Below are positions 2,127 through 11,948 of a stretch of 64,000 bases of DNA, in pieces (positions within the stretch are counted from its first letter, which is position 1; each line of letters begins with the position of its first letter). The position numbers and the translations under genes are program-made. Origin of the DNA: Mariniblastus sp. GTDB lineage: Bacteria; Planctomycetota; Planctomycetia; Pirellulales; Pirellulaceae. Location: the NCBI GenBank assembly GCA_022447555.1, contig JAKVBF010000016.1, positions 15,500 through 79,499 of the forward strand, in the 5' to 3' direction. The notes below the pieces were generated by a model. That model saw only the letters and a program-made list of their open reading frames with translations, had not been told where the DNA came from and did not search any database.

Positions 2127-2199
2127 GCCCCCGTAGCTCAGGGGATAGAGCACCGCTTTCCTAAAGCGGGTGTCGCAGGTTCGAATCCTGCCGGGGGCG
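2127..2199 (+). tRNA. tRNA-Arg (anticodon CCT)
   Basis: A full cloverleaf can be drawn. The acceptor stem is GCCCCCG paired with CGGGGGC, with discriminator G. The D-arm is GCTC...GAGC. The anticodon stem CCGCT/AGCGG has loop TTCCTAA, giving anticodon CCT (reads AGG, arginine). The T-arm is GCAGG-TTCGAAT-CCTGC. The gene does not encode the CCA end. It stands alone, not in a tRNA cluster. Confidence 0.97.
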
Positions 2200-2485
2200 T
2201 TTCATCCAAGGAAAACAGAAACCGAAACTCAGCTTTCCATTCGCAATAGTTGCTTGGATTCTCGTGACGTTTGTTTCTGGCCAACGAGTCAAAAAAAACT
2301 CTTGCGTTTATGCTTTCATCCCATGGATGTTGCCAATGAATGACGTTCGCCGCCCGAAGCCAGATCGAGAATCAATAGGACTGAAAGTCCGTCAAAACAG
2401 GACGAGTCCGGAAATGTCTTAAGTGAACGGAATCGAGGAGCCAACATGAAACACATCCGCGGCCGGGCTCATTTCAATTGCGCAT

Positions 2486-2517
2486 AAAAAAAGGTGGCGT
2501 CCCATCAGATGCCACCT
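2486..2517 (-). terminator. Rho-independent terminator of the PEP-CTERM gene
   Basis: On the minus strand a hairpin with stem AGGTGGC/GCCACCT is followed by seven T residues, starting 15 bases after the TAA stop of the PEP-CTERM gene. The A-rich flank on the other side makes it partly bidirectional. Confidence 0.85.
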
Positions 2518-2532
2518 CAGAACTTTTTTTTC

Positions 2533-3210
2533 TTATCGACGTCTTCGGAATCCAGCTAGTCCACAAAGAGCCACCATCACCGAAAATGCTGCTGGTTCTG
2601 GAACAGATTGCATATTGTACGAGGAATCCGACGTATTCACGTAATCCACCCGGGCTGCTGCCAATGACTGATGAACGGCGAACGGTGCGCCGGTCATGGT
2701 CATAGAATAAAAGGAACTGGCGTTCAGCCCAGTCCACTCAGCTCGGTAATATTGATACGTGAATCCGCCCGAATCTTTGTATTGGTAATTCGCGAATTCG
2801 TCCGGAGCAGCGCCGCCTAGCGCAAAACTGCTTGCGGTGTAAGCACTGGAACTTGTCGCAACTTGCAAAGCAACACTGGTGTAGTCCTCCGTATTGTCCA
2901 CCGAGGTAACCTGAACATTATACGTTGGCACCGTGCTCATTGAATACAGATTGCCTGTACTGGTCACGATCCCACCCGCGGGACTAGCCAAAAGAATGCT
3001 GCTCGTTGGACCCGTCTGATCCGGTTGGTGAGCGTCGGTGTACTGGCCTGTGAAATCGCCCCAACCTTGCTCGCCATCACTGACTTCAAAATCTACAAAT
3101 GCATCGTAAAGAACGTCCGCCGAAGCGGCATTCATCACGACAAAGCTACAAAGCAACGTACCCGTAAAAACGGCCGTCACTTTCTTCATAACGCTATAGT
3201 GCGCTGACAT
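2533..3210 (-). CDS. PEP-CTERM sorting-signal exported protein
   Basis: A 225-residue secreted protein. The N-terminus carries a signal peptide (MKK followed by a hydrophobic run, cleavage near the Ala-Ser-Ala at about 28-31). The last 23 residues form a PEP-CTERM tail: Val-Pro-Glu-Pro, a hydrophobic helix, then RRRR. This tail is the known substrate for exosortase/archaeosortase-type processing and surface attachment. The middle is rich in Ser, Thr, Tyr and Gly with no recognised domain. The start ATG at 3210 has AGGAG at correct spacing, and a strong terminator follows the stop. No exosortase or EPS gene lies nearby, so sorting must be supplied from elsewhere in the genome. The molecular role of the mature protein is unknown. 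Confidence 0.85.
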   Translation of the reverse strand: MSAHYSVMKKVTAVFTGTLLCSFVVMNAASADVLYDAFVDFEVSDGEQGWGDFTGQYTDAHQPDQTGPTSSILLASPAGGIVTSTGNLYSMSTVPTYNVQVTSVDNTEDYTSVALQVATSSSAYTASSFALGGAAPDEFANYQYKDSGGFTYQYYRAEWTGLNASSFYSMTMTGAPFAVHQSLAAARVDYVNTSDSSYNMQSVPEPAAFSVMVALCGLAGFRRRR

Positions 3211-3946: not shown

Positions 3947-4723
3947 ATGGATTCAGAACCCGATGACGGTAAAAAACTTGCCGAGGGAAGGGCACAACGC
4001 AAAGCACTACTGTTGATTTGGTTTGTGATTGGCCTCGTTGGTATGGCGATACTCTCCTACGGCCACTATCAATTGACACGTGCACGGGCAAGCGCGATGT
4101 GGCCCCTAGCTGACGGACAAATTATCGTCTCCCGGGTGGACCGACATACCGATGAAGAAGGGACCCACTATTCAGCCAATATCAAATACCGGTACCAAGT
4201 CGGAAGCAGTTATTTTGAGTCGGATGTAGTCGTCATCGGCGGTCATAACTATACCGTTCATGGCGTGGTCGCGCGTTACCCCAACGGACAAGCGGTGAAA
4301 GTCGCCTACAATCCAACCAAACCACGCCAAGCCGTGTTAGAGCCGGGCGTCGAATCGACACAGCTACAAACACTGGGCGTCCTCATGATGTCAGGTGCCT
4401 TTTTCATGGCTGTCCTCTTCAATTTCATCCTTCGGCAGGCAATGAATGAGGACAAAAACGCAGTGGACCAAGTGATCCTTCTGGTCTTAAAAACGCTTTT
4501 TTTCCCATTCAAACTTTCTAATGGCAACCCACTTATTATGGGTGCGATGGTCGGAACCGCCTATTGTCTCTCCACGTTGGAACTTCATCCGATAGCGACA
4601 TGGCCAGCGCGGATATTCACTGCCCTCTATGGTCTGGGATTCATCGTCATGCTTTGGGGAACTTTTATGGGTTGGTTGATGGGATTGGCCAAAGGAGATG
4701 ATGACGAGGAAGGTTGCGAATGA
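3947..4723 (+). CDS. DUF3592-type membrane protein
   Basis: A 258-residue membrane protein. One membrane helix at about 22-44 is followed by an extracytoplasmic beta-rich domain (45-140). In that domain a W-P-x-A-x-G-x-I-like start, a YRYQVGSSYFES segment and AYNPTKPRQAVLEPG near its end are typical of DUF3592 proteins. Three or four further hydrophobic helices fill the C-terminal half, and the tail is acidic (DDDEE). The start has GAAGG eleven bases upstream. Its function is unknown; DUF3592 proteins are widespread small membrane proteins without an assigned reaction. It lies upstream of the blaI-like gene but is separated by 183 bases with a regulatory-looking inverted repeat, so it is probably a separate transcript. 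Confidence 0.75.
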   Translation: MDSEPDDGKKLAEGRAQRKALLLIWFVIGLVGMAILSYGHYQLTRARASAMWPLADGQIIVSRVDRHTDEEGTHYSANIKYRYQVGSSYFESDVVVIGGHNYTVHGVVARYPNGQAVKVAYNPTKPRQAVLEPGVESTQLQTLGVLMMSGAFFMAVLFNFILRQAMNEDKNAVDQVILLVLKTLFFPFKLSNGNPLIMGAMVGTAYCLSTLELHPIATWPARIFTALYGLGFIVMLWGTFMGWLMGLAKGDDDEEGCE

Positions 4724-4857
4724 AACCGACTCCTGTCCGGTTCGCTGACCGCCCCGGTCAGATAGACCTAAGCCGGCGGTGCCTGTGGGACCGGTTCAGT
4801 TTTACAGTTTGTTGATGGCGAAAACACGGCCCATTGACGTGTACGGTAATACGCCGT

Positions 4858-4884
4858 CGATTTACGTCGACAGGCCGTAAATCG
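4858..4884. promoter_or_regulatory. Candidate BlaI operator (9-bp inverted repeat)
   Basis: A perfect inverted repeat CGATTTACG-N9-CGTAAATCG lies 23-49 bases upstream of the predicted blaI start. BlaI/MecI repressors bind dyads with TTACA/TGTAA-like half-sites and control their own operon. The TTTAC/GTAAA core fits that pattern loosely. Assignment rests on position and symmetry only. Confidence 0.45.
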
Positions 4885-4906
4885 GCGTGCGCGCCTTCCC
4901 GAACCC

Positions 4907-5293
4907 TTGTCGAGTTTTTTCGTGAGTGTTGAAAAACTAACCAACGCAGAAACCACGTTGATGGATCTACTTTGGGACAAAAAACGTTTAACTGCGAGAC
5001 AGATAAGGGAGTCGCTGTATCCTGACTCCAAAACATCGCAACACGGAACGGTGCAAAGGTTATTGCAAAGCCTTGAGGAAAAGGGTTTCGTTCATCGTGA
5101 TCGCTCATTGGGCGTCCAACTTTTTTCAGCCCAACTTGAACGCGCGGCCTACGGTGGTGGCATTCTCGAATCATTGGCTCAACAATTGACCGGCGGCTCG
5201 ATCGCGCCGATCTTAACCCATTTGTTGGACGAAAAAAAACTTGAAAAGACCGAGATCCGTCGGCTAAGAAAACTTCTGGGTGAAGGACCCTAA
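4907..5293 (+). CDS. BlaI/MecI/CopY family repressor
   Basis: A 128-residue winged-helix repressor. The N-terminal LTNAETTLMDLLWDKKRLTARQI, the THGTVQRLLQSLEEKG-like recognition region (here SQHGTVQRLL) and the C-terminal dimerisation helices match BlaI/MecI. In the known system this protein represses its operon until cleaved after signalling by a BlaR1/M56 membrane protease. The start is uncertain: TTG at 4907 or GTG at 4922, neither with a clear ribosome site. Its 3' end overlaps the following M56 gene by 14 bases, the usual blaI-blaR1 arrangement. Because that sensor is broken, the repressor may no longer be inactivated by its partner; the gene itself looks intact. Confidence 0.88.
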   Translation: MSSFFVSVEKLTNAETTLMDLLWDKKRLTARQIRESLYPDSKTSQHGTVQRLLQSLEEKGFVHRDRSLGVQLFSAQLERAAYGGGILESLAQQLTGGSIAPILTHLLDEKKLEKTEIRRLRKLLGEGP

Positions 5294-6209
5294 CGTGGCT
5301 GATTTCCTTTTTCAAGCAACGTTAAGCAACCTAATTGTCTCATCCCTTTTGGCGATAGCCGCGTATTTTATTCAACGGCGTTACCAGGCAGCCAGATTGG
5401 CTAATGTCCTGTGGATCATGGTTGTCATTAAAATGGTGACGCCTCCTCTGCATCCCATCGCTCTGTTGGCCGTTGAACCGATTGGCACAACAAGGGCGGT
5501 GGCCGAATTGAGGGAAGCCAACACGGCGAAATTTCCCACTTATGGCGTCCCAGCAATGACGCAATCCGCGGTTTTACCTCCCTTTCCCGACTCAGGTTCC
5601 CGAATTATCTCCTCTCAATCATGGCTCGGTTTGATCGGATTTAACTTGTTTTTTTCAGTGGGACCTTGCTGTTTGTTTCGCTTGTTCGCGTGCTCCACTT
5701 TCCTCGCTTTCTTAGCCAAAGACTAAAACCACCTCAAGATTTTTTGAGACAGATCACTCTTCAGATGACCAGACAATTTGGCATCAACAAGGCACCCCGG
5801 ATCGCGGTTTCTAGGGCCAACATCTCTCCTTTCGTCTGGTGGTCAGGAGGACGACCATTGATCGTGATCCCTCAATTAGCGGTCGTCGGGTTGACCGTTG
5901 CTCATTTGAAAGGGATCGTGGCCCATGCATTGGGCACACGTCAAGCGTTTGTATTACTATATCCGTTGGCTAGAGTGCTTCGCCGTCTTGACACTTTGGT
6001 GGAATCCCATCATTGGGTTCACCAGAAAAGAAGCGCGGGCAACTGAGGAAATTGCTTGTGAAACGTTGGTGATATAAACTGTACGGATACAACACGATAC
6101 CTATGCCCGTTCTCTTTTGAACATGGCGGAATTATTTACAACTTCGACCAACCGTCCGCCGGCAGTCGCAAGTGCAATCAATAGTGGCGGGATTTTGGAG
6201 AAGAGAATT
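5280..6209 (+). pseudogene. M56 (BlaR1-like) sensor peptidase, frameshifted and catalytically mutated
   Basis: Three reading-frame segments together spell a planctomycete M56 membrane peptidase. Frame 1 (from GTG 5280) carries the N-terminal helices to the T7 run at 5649-5655; restoring one T continues the protein in the second frame (GTLLFVSLVRVLHF...). The second frame runs through the ISPFVWW and GGRPLIVIPQ motifs to 5933. Removing one G at 5932-5934 returns to the first frame, giving HVKRLYYYIRWLE and WWNPIIGFTRKEARATEE, as expected for the family. A TAA at 6075 then interrupts. After both repairs the zinc motif reads HALAH instead of HELAH, so the catalytic Glu is Ala. Two indels, one stop and a lost catalytic residue make this a genuine pseudogene rather than a sequencing artefact. 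In the intact family this protein cleaves the BlaI repressor. Confidence 0.85.
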
Positions 6210-6212
6210 ACC

Positions 6213-7166
6213 ATGATCATCTCAGAAAAAACTGGGGGTTTAACCCACTGGACGCGTTTTATGGCAGCCTTGCTGGTACTGGCATTATTCCCGATTGGTT
6301 TGGTTTATGCACAAGACTACGAAGCAATACAAAAACGTTTGGGCGATTCTGTCCGATCGGGTGAGATCACCCGAGCCCAAGCGGGCGCCATGCTCCGCGC
6401 ACTGAGACAAACAGATAGCGACGAAAAACCGCAAACTCGTGACGCAGAGATGGAATACAGCAAGCGGGAATACATGGCCGCCGCTGAGAGAATCGAAACG
6501 ATGGTCAAAGAAGGCAAGGTCTCTAAAGAAGATGCCGAGAAACGCCTGGGGCAAATGCGAGAACGAATGTTCCCTTCTAAAGATGGGGCCAGGGACAGCA
6601 GACGTGCTAAAGGTCGAACCAATGCTGACAAGGAGATGGAATACAGCAAGCGGGAATACATGGCCGCCGCTGAGAAAATCGAAACGATGGTCAAAGAAGG
6701 CAAGGTCTCTAAAGAAGATGCCGAGAAACGCCTGGGGCAAATGCGAGAACGAATGTTCCCCTCCAAGGATGGTGCCAAGAAAGGTAAGCGAGAAAAAGGA
6801 CAAACCAAAACCGACACAGCGATGGAGGCCAAAAAACGTGAATACATGGCGACCGTTGAAAAATTTGAGGCCTTGGTGACAGAAGGTAAAATATCAAAAG
6901 AAGATGCCGACGAGCGGTTAGGGCGTTTGCGTATGCGAATGTTCCCCATCCAGGAAGGGGCCAAGAAAAGCAAACTGAGAAAAGGAAGTACCAAACCCGA
7001 GGCGAAAATGAAGGACGAAGACGTCATGGAAGCCAAGAAACTTCGTTATATGAAATTCGCAGAACGTGTCGAAAAAGAATTGAAAGACAAAAAAATCACG
7101 TCGGAACAAGCCGAAGAGAAACTGATCGAAATGCGGATGAGATTGTTCGAACATGACGGCAAGTAA
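6213..7166 (+). CDS. Repeat-containing exported tail of the former M56 sensor
   Basis: This open frame continues the M56 pseudogene. Its first residues (LEKRITMI) and the hydrophobic segment ending VYAQD correspond to the last membrane helix of M56 proteins. Taken from ATG 6213, with GGAG twelve bases upstream, the product is 317 residues and the helix becomes a plausible signal peptide or anchor. The rest is highly charged: four helical repeats of about 60 residues built on REYMAAAE-x-IE-x-MV-x-EGK-x-S-x-EDAE-x-RLG-x-MR-x-RMFP. Repeats 1 and 2 are almost identical in DNA (see the separate repeat entry); 3 and 4 are diverged. The frame is open for 350 codons (from 6117) although the upstream peptidase has several lesions. 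Translation as a separate periplasmic protein is therefore possible. Starts at TTG 6117 or ATG 6123 are alternatives. The function is unknown. Confidence 0.6.
   Translation: MIISEKTGGLTHWTRFMAALLVLALFPIGLVYAQDYEAIQKRLGDSVRSGEITRAQAGAMLRALRQTDSDEKPQTRDAEMEYSKREYMAAAERIETMVKEGKVSKEDAEKRLGQMRERMFPSKDGARDSRRAKGRTNADKEMEYSKREYMAAAEKIETMVKEGKVSKEDAEKRLGQMRERMFPSKDGAKKGKREKGQTKTDTAMEAKKREYMATVEKFEALVTEGKISKEDADERLGRLRMRMFPIQEGAKKSKLRKGSTKPEAKMKDEDVMEAKKLRYMKFAERVEKELKDKKITSEQAEEKLIEMRMRLFEHDGK
6447..6760 (+). repeat. In-frame tandem duplication, 186-bp period
   Basis: Bases 6447-6572 and 6633-6758 are nearly identical over about 126 bases; I see one internal difference (GAGAGA versus GAGAAA). The offset of 186 bases equals 62 codons and keeps the frame. 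The linkers between the copies differ more. Two further, diverged protein repeats follow at about 6822-6950 and 7026-7160. Confidence 0.85.
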
Positions 7167-7270: not shown

Positions 7271-8728
7271 TTATGAAATCAGGGCCTTGATCACCTTCGC
7301 CTTTTCGACGCCGGTTAACCGTTGGTCTAACCCTTGATATTTGTAATTGAACCTTTCGTGATCAAAGCCAAGCAGATGCAACGTGGTTGCGTGGAAATCA
7401 CGTATATGCAGCGGGTCTTTGACAATATTGTAGGAGAAGTCGTCTGTTTCACCATAAATCGTACCTCCTTTTGCTCCACCACCAGCCATCCACATTGAAA
7501 AACAGCGGGGGTGATGGTCTCTCCCGTAATTGTCTTTGGATAGGGTTCCTTGGGTGTAAATGGTCCTACCAAATTCGCCGCCCCAAATGACCAAAGTATC
7601 GTCCAACATTCCCCGTTGTTTCAGATCCTCTAGCAATGCATAACAGGGGCGATCGACATCCTTGCATTGAGCCGGCATCCTGACTTTGATATTGCCGTGA
7701 TGGTCCCAGTTATTGTGATATATTTGAACAAACCGAACTCCGCGCTCCGACAAACGGCGCGCCATCAAAACCGTATTGGCGAACGTCCCGGGTTTCTTGG
7801 CTTCTTCCCCGTACAACTCAAACGTATGTGCTGGCTCCTGATTGATGTCGGTCAACTCCGGTACGCTGGCCTGCATTCTAAAGGCCATCTCGTATTGCTG
7901 GATTCGCGTTCTGGTCTCTGGGTCCGACAGGCGTTGCAACTGCAATTGGTTCAGTTGATTCACGCCTTGAATCGATCGACGACGGATCGAATCGGGCACG
8001 CCCGGTGGATTGTTAATATACAGTATGGGATCACCGGAGCTGCGAAAACGAACACCAGCATGCTCTCCTGATAGATAACCCGAACTCCACAAACGCGATG
8101 AGATCGCCTGTTCTTGATCACGGTTGGAAGGGATCGCAACCAATACAACGAAGGAAGGTAGATTTTCGTTTTCTGAACCGAGTCCGTACGAAGCCCATGA
8201 TCCAAGACAGGGACGACCCGTAACTTGATTACCCGTTTGCATCGCGGTAATCGCAGGTTCGTGATTGATCGCTTCGGTATGCAGACTCCGCATCCAGCAT
8301 ATTTCATCCGCTTTTTTGGATAAATTTGGAAGCATCTCCGTATTCATCCACATACCACAATCACCTGCCGGACTAAATTTGAACCGGGACGGAGCCACCG
8401 GAAAACGCGCCTGACCGCTGGTCATGGTCGTTAAACGCTGTCCGTTCCGAATAGACTCTGGCAGTTCTTTGTCATACCAATCTTTCATCTTCGGTTTGTA
8501 ATCAAGTAAATCCATTTGCGCCGGCCCACCCACCATATGCAGATAGATGACCCGTTTGGCACGAGGGGGGAAATGAGGGCCCATCGGGTCGCCCTCCGTT
8601 CCATTAGCAACGGATGCGAGTGAGTTACCCAAAAGCGAGGTCAACGCAGCGCCGCCTAATAGATTCCGGCCACTGGCAAAAAATTGCCTACGGTTTTGAT
8701 AGATCTGATCGATGTGGTGAGGTTCCAT
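7271..8728 (-). CDS. DUF1501 family protein (Tat-exported)
   Basis: A 485-residue DUF1501 protein. The N-terminus has a twin-arginine-like signal (RRQFF at 13-17, then GRNLLGGAALTSLLG). Characteristic motifs include YLHMVGGPAQMDLLDYKP near residue 65, GGEFGRT near 390 and GRDHHPRCFSMWMAGGG near 410. These place it in the alkaline-phosphatase/sulfatase-like superfamily group that is very abundant in planctomycetes. It starts 22 bases after the stop of the PSD1 gene on the same strand, so the two form the usual PSD1-DUF1501 operon. The pair is presumed to act outside the cytoplasm on complex polysaccharides or related compounds, but no substrate has been established for the family to my knowledge. 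No terminator hairpin is evident after the stop. Confidence 0.93.
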   Translation of the reverse strand: MEPHHIDQIYQNRRQFFASGRNLLGGAALTSLLGNSLASVANGTEGDPMGPHFPPRAKRVIYLHMVGGPAQMDLLDYKPKMKDWYDKELPESIRNGQRLTTMTSGQARFPVAPSRFKFSPAGDCGMWMNTEMLPNLSKKADEICWMRSLHTEAINHEPAITAMQTGNQVTGRPCLGSWASYGLGSENENLPSFVVLVAIPSNRDQEQAISSRLWSSGYLSGEHAGVRFRSSGDPILYINNPPGVPDSIRRRSIQGVNQLNQLQLQRLSDPETRTRIQQYEMAFRMQASVPELTDINQEPAHTFELYGEEAKKPGTFANTVLMARRLSERGVRFVQIYHNNWDHHGNIKVRMPAQCKDVDRPCYALLEDLKQRGMLDDTLVIWGGEFGRTIYTQGTLSKDNYGRDHHPRCFSMWMAGGGAKGGTIYGETDDFSYNIVKDPLHIRDFHATTLHLLGFDHERFNYKYQGLDQRLTGVEKAKVIKALIS

Positions 8729-8750
8729 GGTTTGGCCCGAAAGGTTTGGT

Positions 8751-11700
8751 TTATTTGTTCAGTGCTTCATCGAGATTCAAAACTTGGTTGCCAATGATGG
8801 TCCAGGCAGCGTAATTTGCCGTATCAAGGGACTTTTCGGCAGGTGTCTCGCCGATTCGAATCAGTTCTTCTGCGTCGGAACGGTGGTTTTTATAATGTTT
8901 CAGATAGGCGTGATAATCTCCCAATAGAATTGTTTTTTCCTCATCCGACGGAGGTCGCCCAAGCACCCTTTTCACCAGTGTGGACAACACTTCATCAGCT
9001 CCATCATGGGTCTGCAAAAGAGTCGTTTGGGCTAAGACGCGCGCCGCCTCGACAAATTGTGGGTCGTTGAGCGTGACCAGCGCCTGCAGCGGTGTATTGG
9101 TTCGCTCACGTCGAACGGTACAAACTTCGCGACTGGGCGCGTTGAAGGCCTCGAGATTAGGGGGCGGCGCCATCCGTTTCCAGAACGTGTACACGGCCCT
9201 GCGATAAAGGTCGTCACCTTTGCTTTGCACATAATTTCGCGTATCGCCTCCAGGCAACCCCACAATGTTCCAAATATCGCTTGGTTGATACGGTTTGACG
9301 CTGGGACCATACATTTTGGACGAAAGTAAACCACTGACCGATAAGGCCGAATCCCGGATCATCTCCGCATCCATTCGATACCGTGGACCGCGTGATAGAA
9401 AAAAATTATCGCGGTCTAGCGCCATCTTTTGCGGAGAGTTCACAGCGGCTTGTCGATAGGTTGCGCTGGAGAGAATTAGCTTGAACAGTTGTTTTACATC
9501 CCAACCCTTTTCCCGAAATTCAATCGCCAACCAATCCAACAGCTCCGGGTGCGAAGGCAAGCTACCCATGACCCCGAAATCCTCCGTCGTGGTCACCAAT
9601 CCTTTGCCAAAAATTTCTTGCCAAAATCGATTGACCGTGACCCGTGGTGTGAGGGGGTTGGAGGGATCCAGTAACCAGTGTGCCAATCCCAAGCGATTGG
9701 GTGGCGATCCTTCGGGCATCGGGTGCAACGCTGCGATTGGCGATGCCGACACCTGTTCCCCTTTATTGTCATATTCGCCACGCTTCAGGATATGGGCCAT
9801 CGCCGGGCCTTTGTCGGATTCCGTTTGAATATGCGTCACTGGACTGCGAGCACGAATCGCCGATTGTTCTGACTCCAACTCGTTGATTGTTTGGGATAGG
9901 CGTGGAAATTCTTGATCCTCAGTATTCAAGTAATATTCGAAAAGCTTCTTGTTATCCTCTTCCCTCCGCTCTTCAATCCCTTGGTTCAAGATGGCCGAGA
10001 CCGTGGTCGCTTCGGCTAAAGCCATGACTTCATCCTCCGACACCTGTCGTTGGTAAACCCTTACGTCTTGGATTAAACCCTCTTTGAAAAGGGCGCCCTC
10101 GCTCCGTTGGCCAACGCGAAACGGGGTGGAGGTTTTCAGCGAAGCGTTCGGTTTCAAGGTGTTGGTGTCGGTTCGCGTTTTGGTACGTTTTCCATCCACG
10201 AAGATCTTGATCCCTTCCGGTTTTCCTGACCCATCATAGGTCACGAAAAGATGTTGCCAAACATTGGCTTTCAGGACCGATTGCGGGGTTGATACCTTAA
10301 TGGCGTTGGAGGGCCATTGGTCGACCAAATGAACGGCCAAACTGAGTCCTTGCTGCCAAAGATCAAATCCACGAAACCCCCCTTTTTCATCCATTCGGGC
10401 TAAAATCCCAGCGCCCCCTAGCGACTCCGGCGTTTTTACCCAAGCGCCGTAGCTAAACGCTTCATTCTTTTGAAAATCTCCGATCCCTTGTAAGTCGAAC
10501 GTCTTGCCCTCCTGCACCTTAGGCGCAGGGCCCAAAGGTCCGCCGACATTCCATTCAACGGTGCCTGAGGCCCTGTAGACCGTATTATTGGGAAGCCTCG
10601 CCACTGCCGTTGAACCCTTCCCTTCATTCAGAGGGATATGGGCCACCAAGCCACGCTGGGGAATTTTTTGAACCACCTCTTCGGCGGAAGCGGTAGCTAA
10701 CCATTGTTCAAATACCGGGCGAGCCGCCACCCTTCGCTTATCTCTGGCTTTTTTAGCTTGGAGGATCTCCTGGGGTAGTGCCATCCATCGTTCGCGATCC
10801 GACTCGTTCGGGACGATCATACTCGGCCCCCTACCATCTTTGACATTTCCGTCCTTAGCCGGCTGTGTGGTATTGCGAAAAAACGCGGCCAAAGCGTAAT
10901 AATCTTTCGCTGTGATTGGATCAAATTTATGGTCGTGGCACTGAGCACAATTGGTGGTCAAACCGAGATAGACCCAACCCAGTGTTTGCACCCGATCCGT
11001 TGCATAGAGAGCGAGGTTTTCTTCGTCGATCGTTCCACCCTCGTTCGTGGTGATATTGCACCGTGCAAATCCGGTTGCAATCAATTGATCTTGGGTCGGG
11101 CTTGGTAAAAGATCACCTGCTATTTGTTCCAATGTGAATTGATCAAACGGCTGATTCGAATTAAACGAGCGTATGACCCAATCTCGATAGGGCCACATCT
11201 CTCGATAATTATCAAAGTGCATACCATGGGTATCTCCATACCTCGCCGCGTCCAACCAGTAACGTCCGCGATGTTCACCCCAACTGGGCTCTGCCATCAA
11301 TCGATCGATCCATTCGTCCATGGCCCGGTCCCCACGTTTTTGGTAATCTAAAACGAAGGCCGATACCTGGTCCGGTTTGGGCGGAAGACCCGTGATATCC
11401 AAATTGAGTCGGCGAAAAAGAGTCCTCGGGTCCGCTTCTGCCGCCGGCGATAAACCTTTCTTTTCCAACGTGGCCAAAACAAATTGATCAATTGGATTTT
11501 TTGGCCATTCGGTGTTAATAACCTTAGGTAGATTCGCTCGTAGCGGTTCTTGAAACGACCAATGAGACTCATACTGGGCCCCTTCATGGATCCAGCGTTT
11601 CAAGGTATTCGATTCTTCTAGAGTGAGCTCTTTTTTTGATTCGGGAGGGGGCATCAACAAATCCGGATCGTCCGTTAAAAGGCGAGCGACCATCTCACTT

Positions 11701-11948
11701 TGAGGTACATCGCCCGGTACAATGGCGCCCATTTCGAGAGCCATGTCACGTCGGTCCAATCGAAGACCCGCCTGACGCGCTGCACTATCCGCCCCGTGAC
11801 AGGCGAAACATTTGTCCGCCAAAATCGGTCGTATATCTCGGTTGTATCGAAGCGGCTCTTCTGACAAGGAGAGATCAACACAAGTGAGGCTGAGCAGGAG
11901 CATAATGGAGCTACGAATCATCGCAAACATGTTGTGGTGGTAGGTCAT
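8751..11948 (-). CDS. PSD1 protein: PSCyt1 cytochrome, DUF1549, LamG, DUF1553
   Basis: A 1065-residue exported protein. After the signal peptide a planctomycete cytochrome C domain has the heme site CFACH at 47-51, followed by LRLDRRD. DUF1549 follows (about 150-370: RRLNLDITGLPP, and TNCAQCHDHKFDPI with a second CxxCH). A LamG/concanavalin-like insertion occupies about 430-640 (GVWVKTP-like and WQHLFVTYDGSG segments). DUF1553 fills the C-terminal third (LTPRVTVNRFWQEIFGKGLV, then RRAVYTFWKR and NTPLQALVTLNDP). It is the first gene of a two-gene operon with the DUF1501 protein. Domain functions are inferred: heme-linked redox chemistry on a glycan bound by the LamG module is likely but unproven. 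Start may be ATG 11948 or a downstream ATG 18 bases on; the signal peptide favours the latter. Confidence 0.93.
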   Translation of the reverse strand: MTYHHNMFAMIRSSIMLLLSLTCVDLSLSEEPLRYNRDIRPILADKCFACHGADSAARQAGLRLDRRDMALEMGAIVPGDVPQSEMVARLLTDDPDLLMPPPESKKELTLEESNTLKRWIHEGAQYESHWSFQEPLRANLPKVINTEWPKNPIDQFVLATLEKKGLSPAAEADPRTLFRRLNLDITGLPPKPDQVSAFVLDYQKRGDRAMDEWIDRLMAEPSWGEHRGRYWLDAARYGDTHGMHFDNYREMWPYRDWVIRSFNSNQPFDQFTLEQIAGDLLPSPTQDQLIATGFARCNITTNEGGTIDEENLALYATDRVQTLGWVYLGLTTNCAQCHDHKFDPITAKDYYALAAFFRNTTQPAKDGNVKDGRGPSMIVPNESDRERWMALPQEILQAKKARDKRRVAARPVFEQWLATASAEEVVQKIPQRGLVAHIPLNEGKGSTAVARLPNNTVYRASGTVEWNVGGPLGPAPKVQEGKTFDLQGIGDFQKNEAFSYGAWVKTPESLGGAGILARMDEKGGFRGFDLWQQGLSLAVHLVDQWPSNAIKVSTPQSVLKANVWQHLFVTYDGSGKPEGIKIFVDGKRTKTRTDTNTLKPNASLKTSTPFRVGQRSEGALFKEGLIQDVRVYQRQVSEDEVMALAEATTVSAILNQGIEERREEDNKKLFEYYLNTEDQEFPRLSQTINELESEQSAIRARSPVTHIQTESDKGPAMAHILKRGEYDNKGEQVSASPIAALHPMPEGSPPNRLGLAHWLLDPSNPLTPRVTVNRFWQEIFGKGLVTTTEDFGVMGSLPSHPELLDWLAIEFREKGWDVKQLFKLILSSATYRQAAVNSPQKMALDRDNFFLSRGPRYRMDAEMIRDSALSVSGLLSSKMYGPSVKPYQPSDIWNIVGLPGGDTRNYVQSKGDDLYRRAVYTFWKRMAPPPNLEAFNAPSREVCTVRRERTNTPLQALVTLNDPQFVEAARVLAQTTLLQTHDGADEVLSTLVKRVLGRPPSDEEKTILLGDYHAYLKHYKNHRSDAEELIRIGETPAEKSLDTANYAAWTIIGNQVLNLDEALNK

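Follow-up and report, generated by a model that had tools for sequence, protein, structure and literature searches.

The window analyzed here, 64,000 nucleotides of a planctomycete genome (C8:15500-79499; the genome comprises 4.19 Mb in 62 contigs and is 97.5% complete), contains a gene for an intact BlaI/MecI-type repressor followed by the remains of a gene for an M56 membrane metallopeptidase (Table 1). The host, probably marine, is taken to be an environmental bacterium of the Pirellulaceae. The repressor matches PF03965 with 74.7 bits (cutoff, 22.6) over positions 1 to 114 of the 115 positions of the model. It keeps all 39 residues that are invariant at the 20 other loci of its subfamily and shows no relaxation, in line with an earlier reading of this DNA from its letters alone (the sequence-only reading), which had called BlaI intact. 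The best match of this BlaI in the genome collection is Mariniblastus sp. isolate bin94s (JABACA010000085.1), of a genus that NCBI assigns to the Pirellulaceae (Planctomycetota), and the closest relative at the locus is G026, in which the gene pair sits on a 19,537-base contig. The DUF3592 gene upstream of blaI has homologues upstream of blaI in G026 (56% by tblastn) and upstream of a stand-alone open reading frame (ORF) in G010, a member of the same genus (55%). The gap between this gene and blaI holds a terminator-like hairpin; sites of this type number 2 on both strands, against 0.3 expected from shuffles. The M56 gene starts with a GTG codon directly after the BlaI stop codon (5291-5293). 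The sequence-only reading had placed the feature at 5280-6209; the M56 pieces do lie there, but 6209 is not the end, as the gene runs on to 7166 in a frame that is open from the TAA codon onward.

Table 1. Features of the blaI-M56 locus (window coordinates)
Feature	Position	Strand	Basis
DUF3592 membrane protein, upstream neighbor	3947..4723	+	PF12158, 46.6 bits
Intergenic terminator-like hairpin (DUF3592 gene/blaI)	4783..4807	+	Weak; consensus scan only
blaI promoter and putative operator, TTGAC-GTG-TACG-GTAATACG-CCGTC-GATT-TACG	4834..4866	+	Aligned sites
BlaI/MecI-type winged-helix repressor, intact, 123 aa	4922..5293	+	GTG start; PF03965
M56 membrane metallopeptidase domain, pseudogenized part	5295..6077	+	Read across three frames
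First lesion, frame change at a T7 run	5649..5655	+	Three-frame reading; orthologue alignment
Second lesion, at the former HExxH site, where every frame lacks a Glu codon; frame reverts at 5932-5934	5924..5939	+	
Tyr in place of the BlaR1 Asp210 equivalent	5952..5954	+	Asp in 19/19 orthologues; numbering as in the part of PMC9834060 used
Glu in place of the ExxxD Asp (BlaR1 Asp246)	6060..6062	+	Asp in 19/19 orthologues; numbering as in the part of PMC9834060 used
Third lesion, in-frame TAA	6075..6077	+	Frame reading and PF05569 match
Tail frame still open, with the last transmembrane helix and the SHOCT-like repeats (347 aa when started at an internal Met)	6123..7166	+	
Tail-encoding tandem repeats, three units of 186 nt in register	6440..6997	+	

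Decay of the M56 Peptidase

The M56 gene lacks a continuous open frame, with two frame changes and a TAA. Its N terminus is read in frame 5280 as far as the T7 run and its middle part in frame 5282, which ends at the HExxH site. Frame 5280 is taken up again at a GGG (5932-5934) and is stopped by the TAA. The position aligned to the catalytic Glu of HExxH, present in all 19 orthologues, is occupied by Ala (GCA, 5927-5929), and GA dinucleotides are absent from 5924-5939, so that none of the frames has a Glu codon there. The Asp five residues beyond the second His is changed to Tyr, and the Asp of the ExxxD motif is changed to Glu. Judged by motif and spacing, the lost residues include the equivalents of Glu202, Asp210, and Asp246 of Staphylococcus aureus BlaR1. 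According to the sections of PMC9834060 on this mechanism, the exchange of Asp210 for Ala or mutation of Asp246 abolishes induction in Bacillus licheniformis. Cleavage of BlaI on induction is predicted to be impossible for the M56 protein described here. The PF05569 profile matches at 39.8 bits (cutoff, 31; model positions 202 to 296), with one TAA inside the match, which places the gene in the family. The same profile finds no second M56 match elsewhere in the genome at an E value of ≤0.001, a check that the sequence-only reading had proposed.

A search for BlaI orthologues at an E value of ≤1e-25 in 241 genomes of the family, most of the compared genomes being drafts, yields 21 loci in 19 genomes, the present locus included. 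At 19 of the 20 other loci, the gene after blaI is an M56 gene whose frame is uninterrupted through the protease domain and whose product has HExxH; 4 of these orthologues run off the end of their contig beyond this domain. The three pieces of the decayed gene align in order to all 19 of these orthologues, which, like the PF05569 match, speaks against a chance resemblance. The decayed gene is changed at 8 of the 34 M56 residues invariant in the 19 orthologues (2/7, 2/10, and 4/17 by part), compared to 0 to 2 for each orthologue in a leave-one-out control. Past the TAA, none of nine invariant residues is changed. Judged by its sequence, the M56 protease is decayed beyond function and the gene is a real pseudogene, an ordinary finding when taken alone. 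The three lesions, the loss of the catalytic Glu, the reality of the decay, and the intact copies sought in relatives all bear out what the sequence-only reading had claimed or asked.

When the nine genus members are taken as the base, excess change is clear in the catalytic part, with 11/30 residues changed here and 3/30 in G026. The other M56 parts give 12/33 versus 7/33 and, in the middle part, which shows no excess, 11/33 versus 10/33. The values after the TAA are 11/47 versus 10/47, and those for BlaI are 11/94 versus 8/95. A clear excess in the catalytic part alone fits late decay without proving it. The regional ratios of amino acid rates between this genome and G026 are mixed and not decisive (BlaI, 3.1; M56 parts, 2.3, 5.1, and 3.6; tail, 2.6). 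On the branch leading to this genome, omega is 0.046 for BlaI (omega of 1 worse by a 2dlnL of 23.9) and 0.13 for the tail part (worse by 10.6), with synonymous sites saturated, so that the timing of the decay and present selection lie beyond measurement. The branch omega for M56 itself was discarded because the branch length reached its bound.

A blaI copy in G210 (C157, L161, BlaI at 2707-3075) has no M56 gene beside it; the next frame encodes a single repeat and an acidic tail. The promoter/operator site of this copy is intact, and its BlaI, in contrast to the one described here, departs from the otherwise invariant residues at 6 of 45 positions. G210 was rejected as a genome with an orphan BlaI, since a second blaI copy there has an intact M56 gene. 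G007 carries two blaI-M56 pairs of the subfamily (L055 and L056), one of them nearly identical to the pair of G021. Order-wide, M56 matches are found in 47 of 60 relatives, with 17 matches in one genome.

The Retained Tail

In the relatives, one protein comprises the M56 domain, a last hydrophobic helix ending in VYA/QD, and SHOCT-like repeats. The tail frame that survives here may start at the internal Met (6123), at the TTG (6117) where the ORF list opens, or at an ATG at 6213. Its last helix resembles a signal peptide, with VYA/QD at 6311/6312. The SHOCT-like family PF22746 (38.7 bits; cutoff, 27) is the sole Pfam family over its cutoff in 6117-7163, and the scan of this range gives no penicillin-binding sensor domain of the kind that marks BlaR1 and MecR1. 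The differences between the repeats fall mostly on third codon positions (copies 1 and 3, 31/60, P = 0.003; copies 1 and 2, 12/21, P = 0.02; binomial test against one-third). Between copies 1 and 2, the first 124 nucleotides contain 4 differences and the last 62 contain 18, a distribution which suggests that part of the 186-nt unit was recently homogenized.

In BlaR1, too, the C-terminal domain comes after the last transmembrane helix and has a signal-peptidase-like site, and the sensor domain is cut by the signal peptidase SpsB between Gly331 and Gln332, as stated in the part of PMC9834060 on its processing. Release of the tail would therefore be in character. The open frame may encode a stand-alone exported protein, provided that it is expressed. 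Absent from the sequence-only reading are this tail (6123-7166) and two matters described below, a further target gene and the parallel case of loss in G010.

The blaI Promoter and the Regulon

The site upstream of blaI in the relatives has the form TTGAC-N3-TACG-N8-YCGTA-N4-TACG, and its dyad, CGTA-N4-TACG, covers the -10 hexamer. This hexamer (4857-4862) is TCGATT here and TATATT in G026. Base 4858, which is the second base of the -10 hexamer and also lies within an operator half-site, is C here and A in all 30 other aligned sites, including those of all 20 other blaI loci. The 31 aligned sites consist of 21 blaI and 10 target sites. Those of blaI are the best-scoring sites per upstream stretch, with the critical A counting for 1/18 of the score; 9 of the 10 target sites were found with the critical base left free, and the site of G003 was found only by the looser pattern given below, which requires the A. 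The inverted half-sites over the -10 hexamer agree at 14 to 18 of 18 positions in the 20 other blaI loci. The putative operator of the present blaI agrees at 17 of 18, one of its halves being altered to CGTC.

A consensus promoter scan recovers the promoters of blaI in G026 and of the target gene in this genome and none at the present blaI. The scan needs the very A that is missing here, and this null result is therefore not independent; the same rule would also overlook 7 of the 20 other blaI sites, and the scan carries little weight for this reason. With the A of the -10 hexamer and operator lost, the supply of repressor is predicted to be low. By this consensus argument on promoter strength, the repressor is probably undermade rather than "locked on," and the proposal of a locked repressor in the sequence-only reading is not supported as stated.

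The strict pattern TTGACNNNTRCGNNNNNNNNYCGTANNTT was derived from the sites found in the genus and in G031, which makes its fit to them partly a matter of construction. It occurs at 20 sites in 14 of the 241 family genomes, compared to 1 in the reversed control; 11 sites lie before blaI and 9 lie before a single further type of gene, the target gene. In G133 and G210, which were not used in building the pattern, both sites also lie at blaI orthologues. In the genus, sites occur in exactly those 11 of the 28 genomes that have a BlaI orthologue. The requirement for CGTA brings the reversed control near zero, which is not so when the critical base is left free: 23 sites are then found (9 at blaI, 9 at the target, and 5 elsewhere), with 4 in the reversed control. 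A looser pattern, TTGAC-N16-19-CGTA-N4-TACG, gave 32 matches in the genus versus 31 reversed and none in this genome and is no evidence by number; nonetheless, it pointed to the second target.

With the critical A free, this genome shows exactly two sites, one at blaI (4834-4862) and the other at C5:92390-92418, upstream of the target gene (C5:91362-92159), whose promoter retains TTGAC-N3-TACG-N8-CCGTA. The BlaI regulon would accordingly consist of two members, blaI and the gene for one presumably exported protein of 282 residues. The two sites lie at blaI and at a target shared with the relatives, and there is no sign of the rewiring to another sensor that had been suggested.

Proteins of the target family are ∼280 residues long with a signal-peptide-like start, and it is from this start, as read by eye, that they are presumed to be exported. 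The targets of this genome and G026 are identical at 209 of 284 aligned open-frame positions; the second copy of G021 and the targets of G025 and G027 are empty in the alignment and lie outside such identities. The site is present at the target in 10 of the 11 genus genomes with a BlaI orthologue. The exception is G021, in which neither of two target homologues carries it. Only G010 has the site among five other genus genomes with a close target homologue, the scans upstream of site-less homologues assuming the orientation of minus-strand loci for some of these negatives (that of G025 is unconfirmed). Target homologues occur in 27 of the 28 genus genomes, mostly several per genome, and in the ten genomes with a BlaI site at the target, one homologue each is seen to bear it. 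Searches with the target protein gave no Pfam family over its cutoff, no NCBIfam family, and nothing convincing among solved structures (best E value, 0.027, for a designed alpha-repeat protein), and phrog_2479, a family of unknown function, matches at 2.7e-5. Identity as a Spy/CpxP-like chaperone, considered on account of a motif, finds no support in the Pfam, NCBIfam, and solved-structure searches.

A Further Stage of Loss in G010

G010, 94% complete, shows no M56 match and no match to the BlaI described here at an E value of ≤0.001. At its syntenic locus (L200, reverse complemented), the DUF3592 gene is present at 2167-3033, and genes shared with G026 lie downstream; blaI and the M56 domain were not found at this locus. 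The tail is present as an ORF (4788-5651) that opens at the equivalent of the internal Met and contains the same helix, VYA/QD, and repeats. Between G010 and G026, omega is 0.12 for the first 94 codons of the tail and 0.19 for its whole aligned part, with omega of 1 rejected in both cases (2dlnL of 47 and 84, respectively), similar to the omega of 0.15 for the neighboring DUF3592 gene. G010 also keeps the target, whose operator scores 16/18. The flanking proteins of G010 and G026 show 77 to 86% identity. The target tree groups G010 with G026 (support, 0.81), and the tree of BlaI plus M56 joins the present locus to G026 and separates both from G031 and six other members of the genus (support, 100). 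On these grounds, the losses in G010 and in the present lineage look independent.

Probable Dismantling of the Switch and Alternative Explanations

By homology with BlaI and BlaR1, BlaI of the relatives would occupy the operator over its own -10 hexamer and the operator at one other promoter, that of the gene for the exported protein. The M56 zinc protease, with its last transmembrane helix and outward tail, would sense a signal from outside, cleave BlaI, and free both promoters. In the present genome, the protease is dead, and the intact blaI has a promoter that lacks an otherwise invariant base; a low supply of BlaI would let the target drift toward constitutive expression, and the M56 tail may persist as a stand-alone exported protein. 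G010 represents a further stage, in which the repressor and protease domain are gone and the tail and target are retained. We consider a stepwise dismantling of the BlaI-M56 switch, in which tail and target outlive the switch, to be the probable course of events, with room for other accounts. It would seem that output and outward tail are worth keeping, and that the regulated switch was discarded, apparently independently in two lineages. More tentatively, the tail could be more than a sensor and cooperate, outside the inner membrane, with the exported target; the two would then persist as a stand-alone two-protein module after loss of the switch, the last transmembrane helix of the receptor having turned into an ordinary signal peptide independently in this lineage and in G010.

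The flawless BlaI may perhaps still be made and used, through an unrecognized promoter or read-through. Were it made and left uncleaved, it would permanently repress both the target and itself, and the 39 of 39 invariant residues and the retained TTGAC-N3-TACG-N8-CCGTA of the target promoter suit such a repressor. This locked state is nevertheless unlikely, as the blaI promoter is without the -10 A found at all 20 other blaI loci, a terminator-like hairpin lies upstream of blaI, and the target is kept in G010 after the loss of BlaI. It is also conceivable that another protease or a ligand inactivates BlaI and made M56 dispensable. A conserved BlaI without M56 is what would then be seen, and the second BlaI of the genome (C1:539798-540136), also without an M56 neighbor, indicates that such proteins occur. 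We give this rewiring rather little credence, since the genome contains no new pattern sites beyond those at blaI and the shared target and since rewiring does not predict the promoter lesion.

Two further explanations would leave a full-length M56 protein in the organism. The frame changes fall in a T7 run and in a GGG, where an error of sequencing or assembly could be suspected; against this stand the stop codon and the eight changed family-invariant residues. In addition, no internal stop interrupts any of the 24 PSD1 matches in the genome, and 23 of them span the model nearly end to end, which makes a generally error-ridden assembly unlikely, and an intact M56 gene is accordingly very improbable. 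T7 runs can support slippage, and programmed frameshifting with readthrough might yield a full-length pseudoprotease that signals by binding BlaI. The ribosome would have to pass two opposite shifts and a stop codon, none of the 19 orthologues needs any such event over the domain, and the catalytic residues are gone regardless; we regard this as hardly credible. The preferred reading remains the stepwise dismantling of the switch.

What raises the case above an ordinary pseudogene is the combination of a two-gene regulon, a hit in the promoter of the repressor, and a parallel case of the tail alone. The regulon of this one subfamily is compact and testable, with blaI and one presumably exported protein under a specific promoter/operator. 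Three stages stand side by side: the intact pair of G026, the present locus with a dead protease and a damaged promoter, and G010 with the switch gone and the tail and target kept. The fate of a repressor after the death of its antagonist thereby becomes directly testable, and the unnamed target and the tail stand out as the components of importance to the cell.

Relation to Known Systems

The gene pair of the relatives probably works like BlaI/BlaR1. As in BlaI/BlaR1 and MecI/MecR1 of Staphylococcus and B. licheniformis, a BlaI-family repressor is followed by an M56 membrane protease, and the M56 proteins of the relatives share with BlaR1 the HExxH motif, the Asp five residues on, and ExxxD (motifs as given in part of PMC9834060). 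In contrast to BlaR1 and MecR1, the C-terminal part is built of SHOCT-like repeats, and Pfam finds no penicillin-binding domain in it. In place of a recognized beta-lactamase, the second target is a protein without a name that is presumably exported, the site is CGTA-N4-TACG over the -10 hexamer, and the protease of the present locus is dead. BlaI of Mycobacterium is tied by the title of PMC12565901 to cell division and growth, beyond beta-lactamase; it belongs to another phylum and has other targets, and the portion of that source considered here mentions no decay of its partner. SHOCT and SHOCT-like domains, as outlined in part of PMC3581485, are short C-terminal domains, in agreement with the PF22746 match; in the present case, they are encoded by a tandem array of 186-nt repeats and come after the transmembrane helix of an M56 protein. 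A term search of the main text of PMC3581485 gives no occurrence of M56. A literature search returned no paper on BlaI/M56 pairs in planctomycetes.

The CopY/TcrY copper repressors (TIGR02698) belong to the same winged-helix superfamily. The BlaI described here scores 40.5 bits with this model, far under the cutoff of 121.95, and in contrast to CopY/TcrY, its partner in the relatives is an M56 protein. The second BlaI-family repressor of the genome (L066:9703-10143, minus strand; 146 aa) has no adjoining M56 gene and scores higher with the CopY/TcrY model, at 82.6 bits. Its neighbors resemble what we take to be genes for ergothioneine synthesis and choline uptake.

Directly downstream of the tail ORF and convergent with it, a gene pair on the minus strand (7271-11948) encodes a PSD1 protein and a protein that we presume to be DUF1501-like; this pair was not found on the 19.5-kb contig of G026. 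On the other side of the locus, an ORF on the minus strand (2533-3210) ends in VPEPAAF..GLAGFRRRR, which we take to be a PEP-CTERM-like sorting signal.
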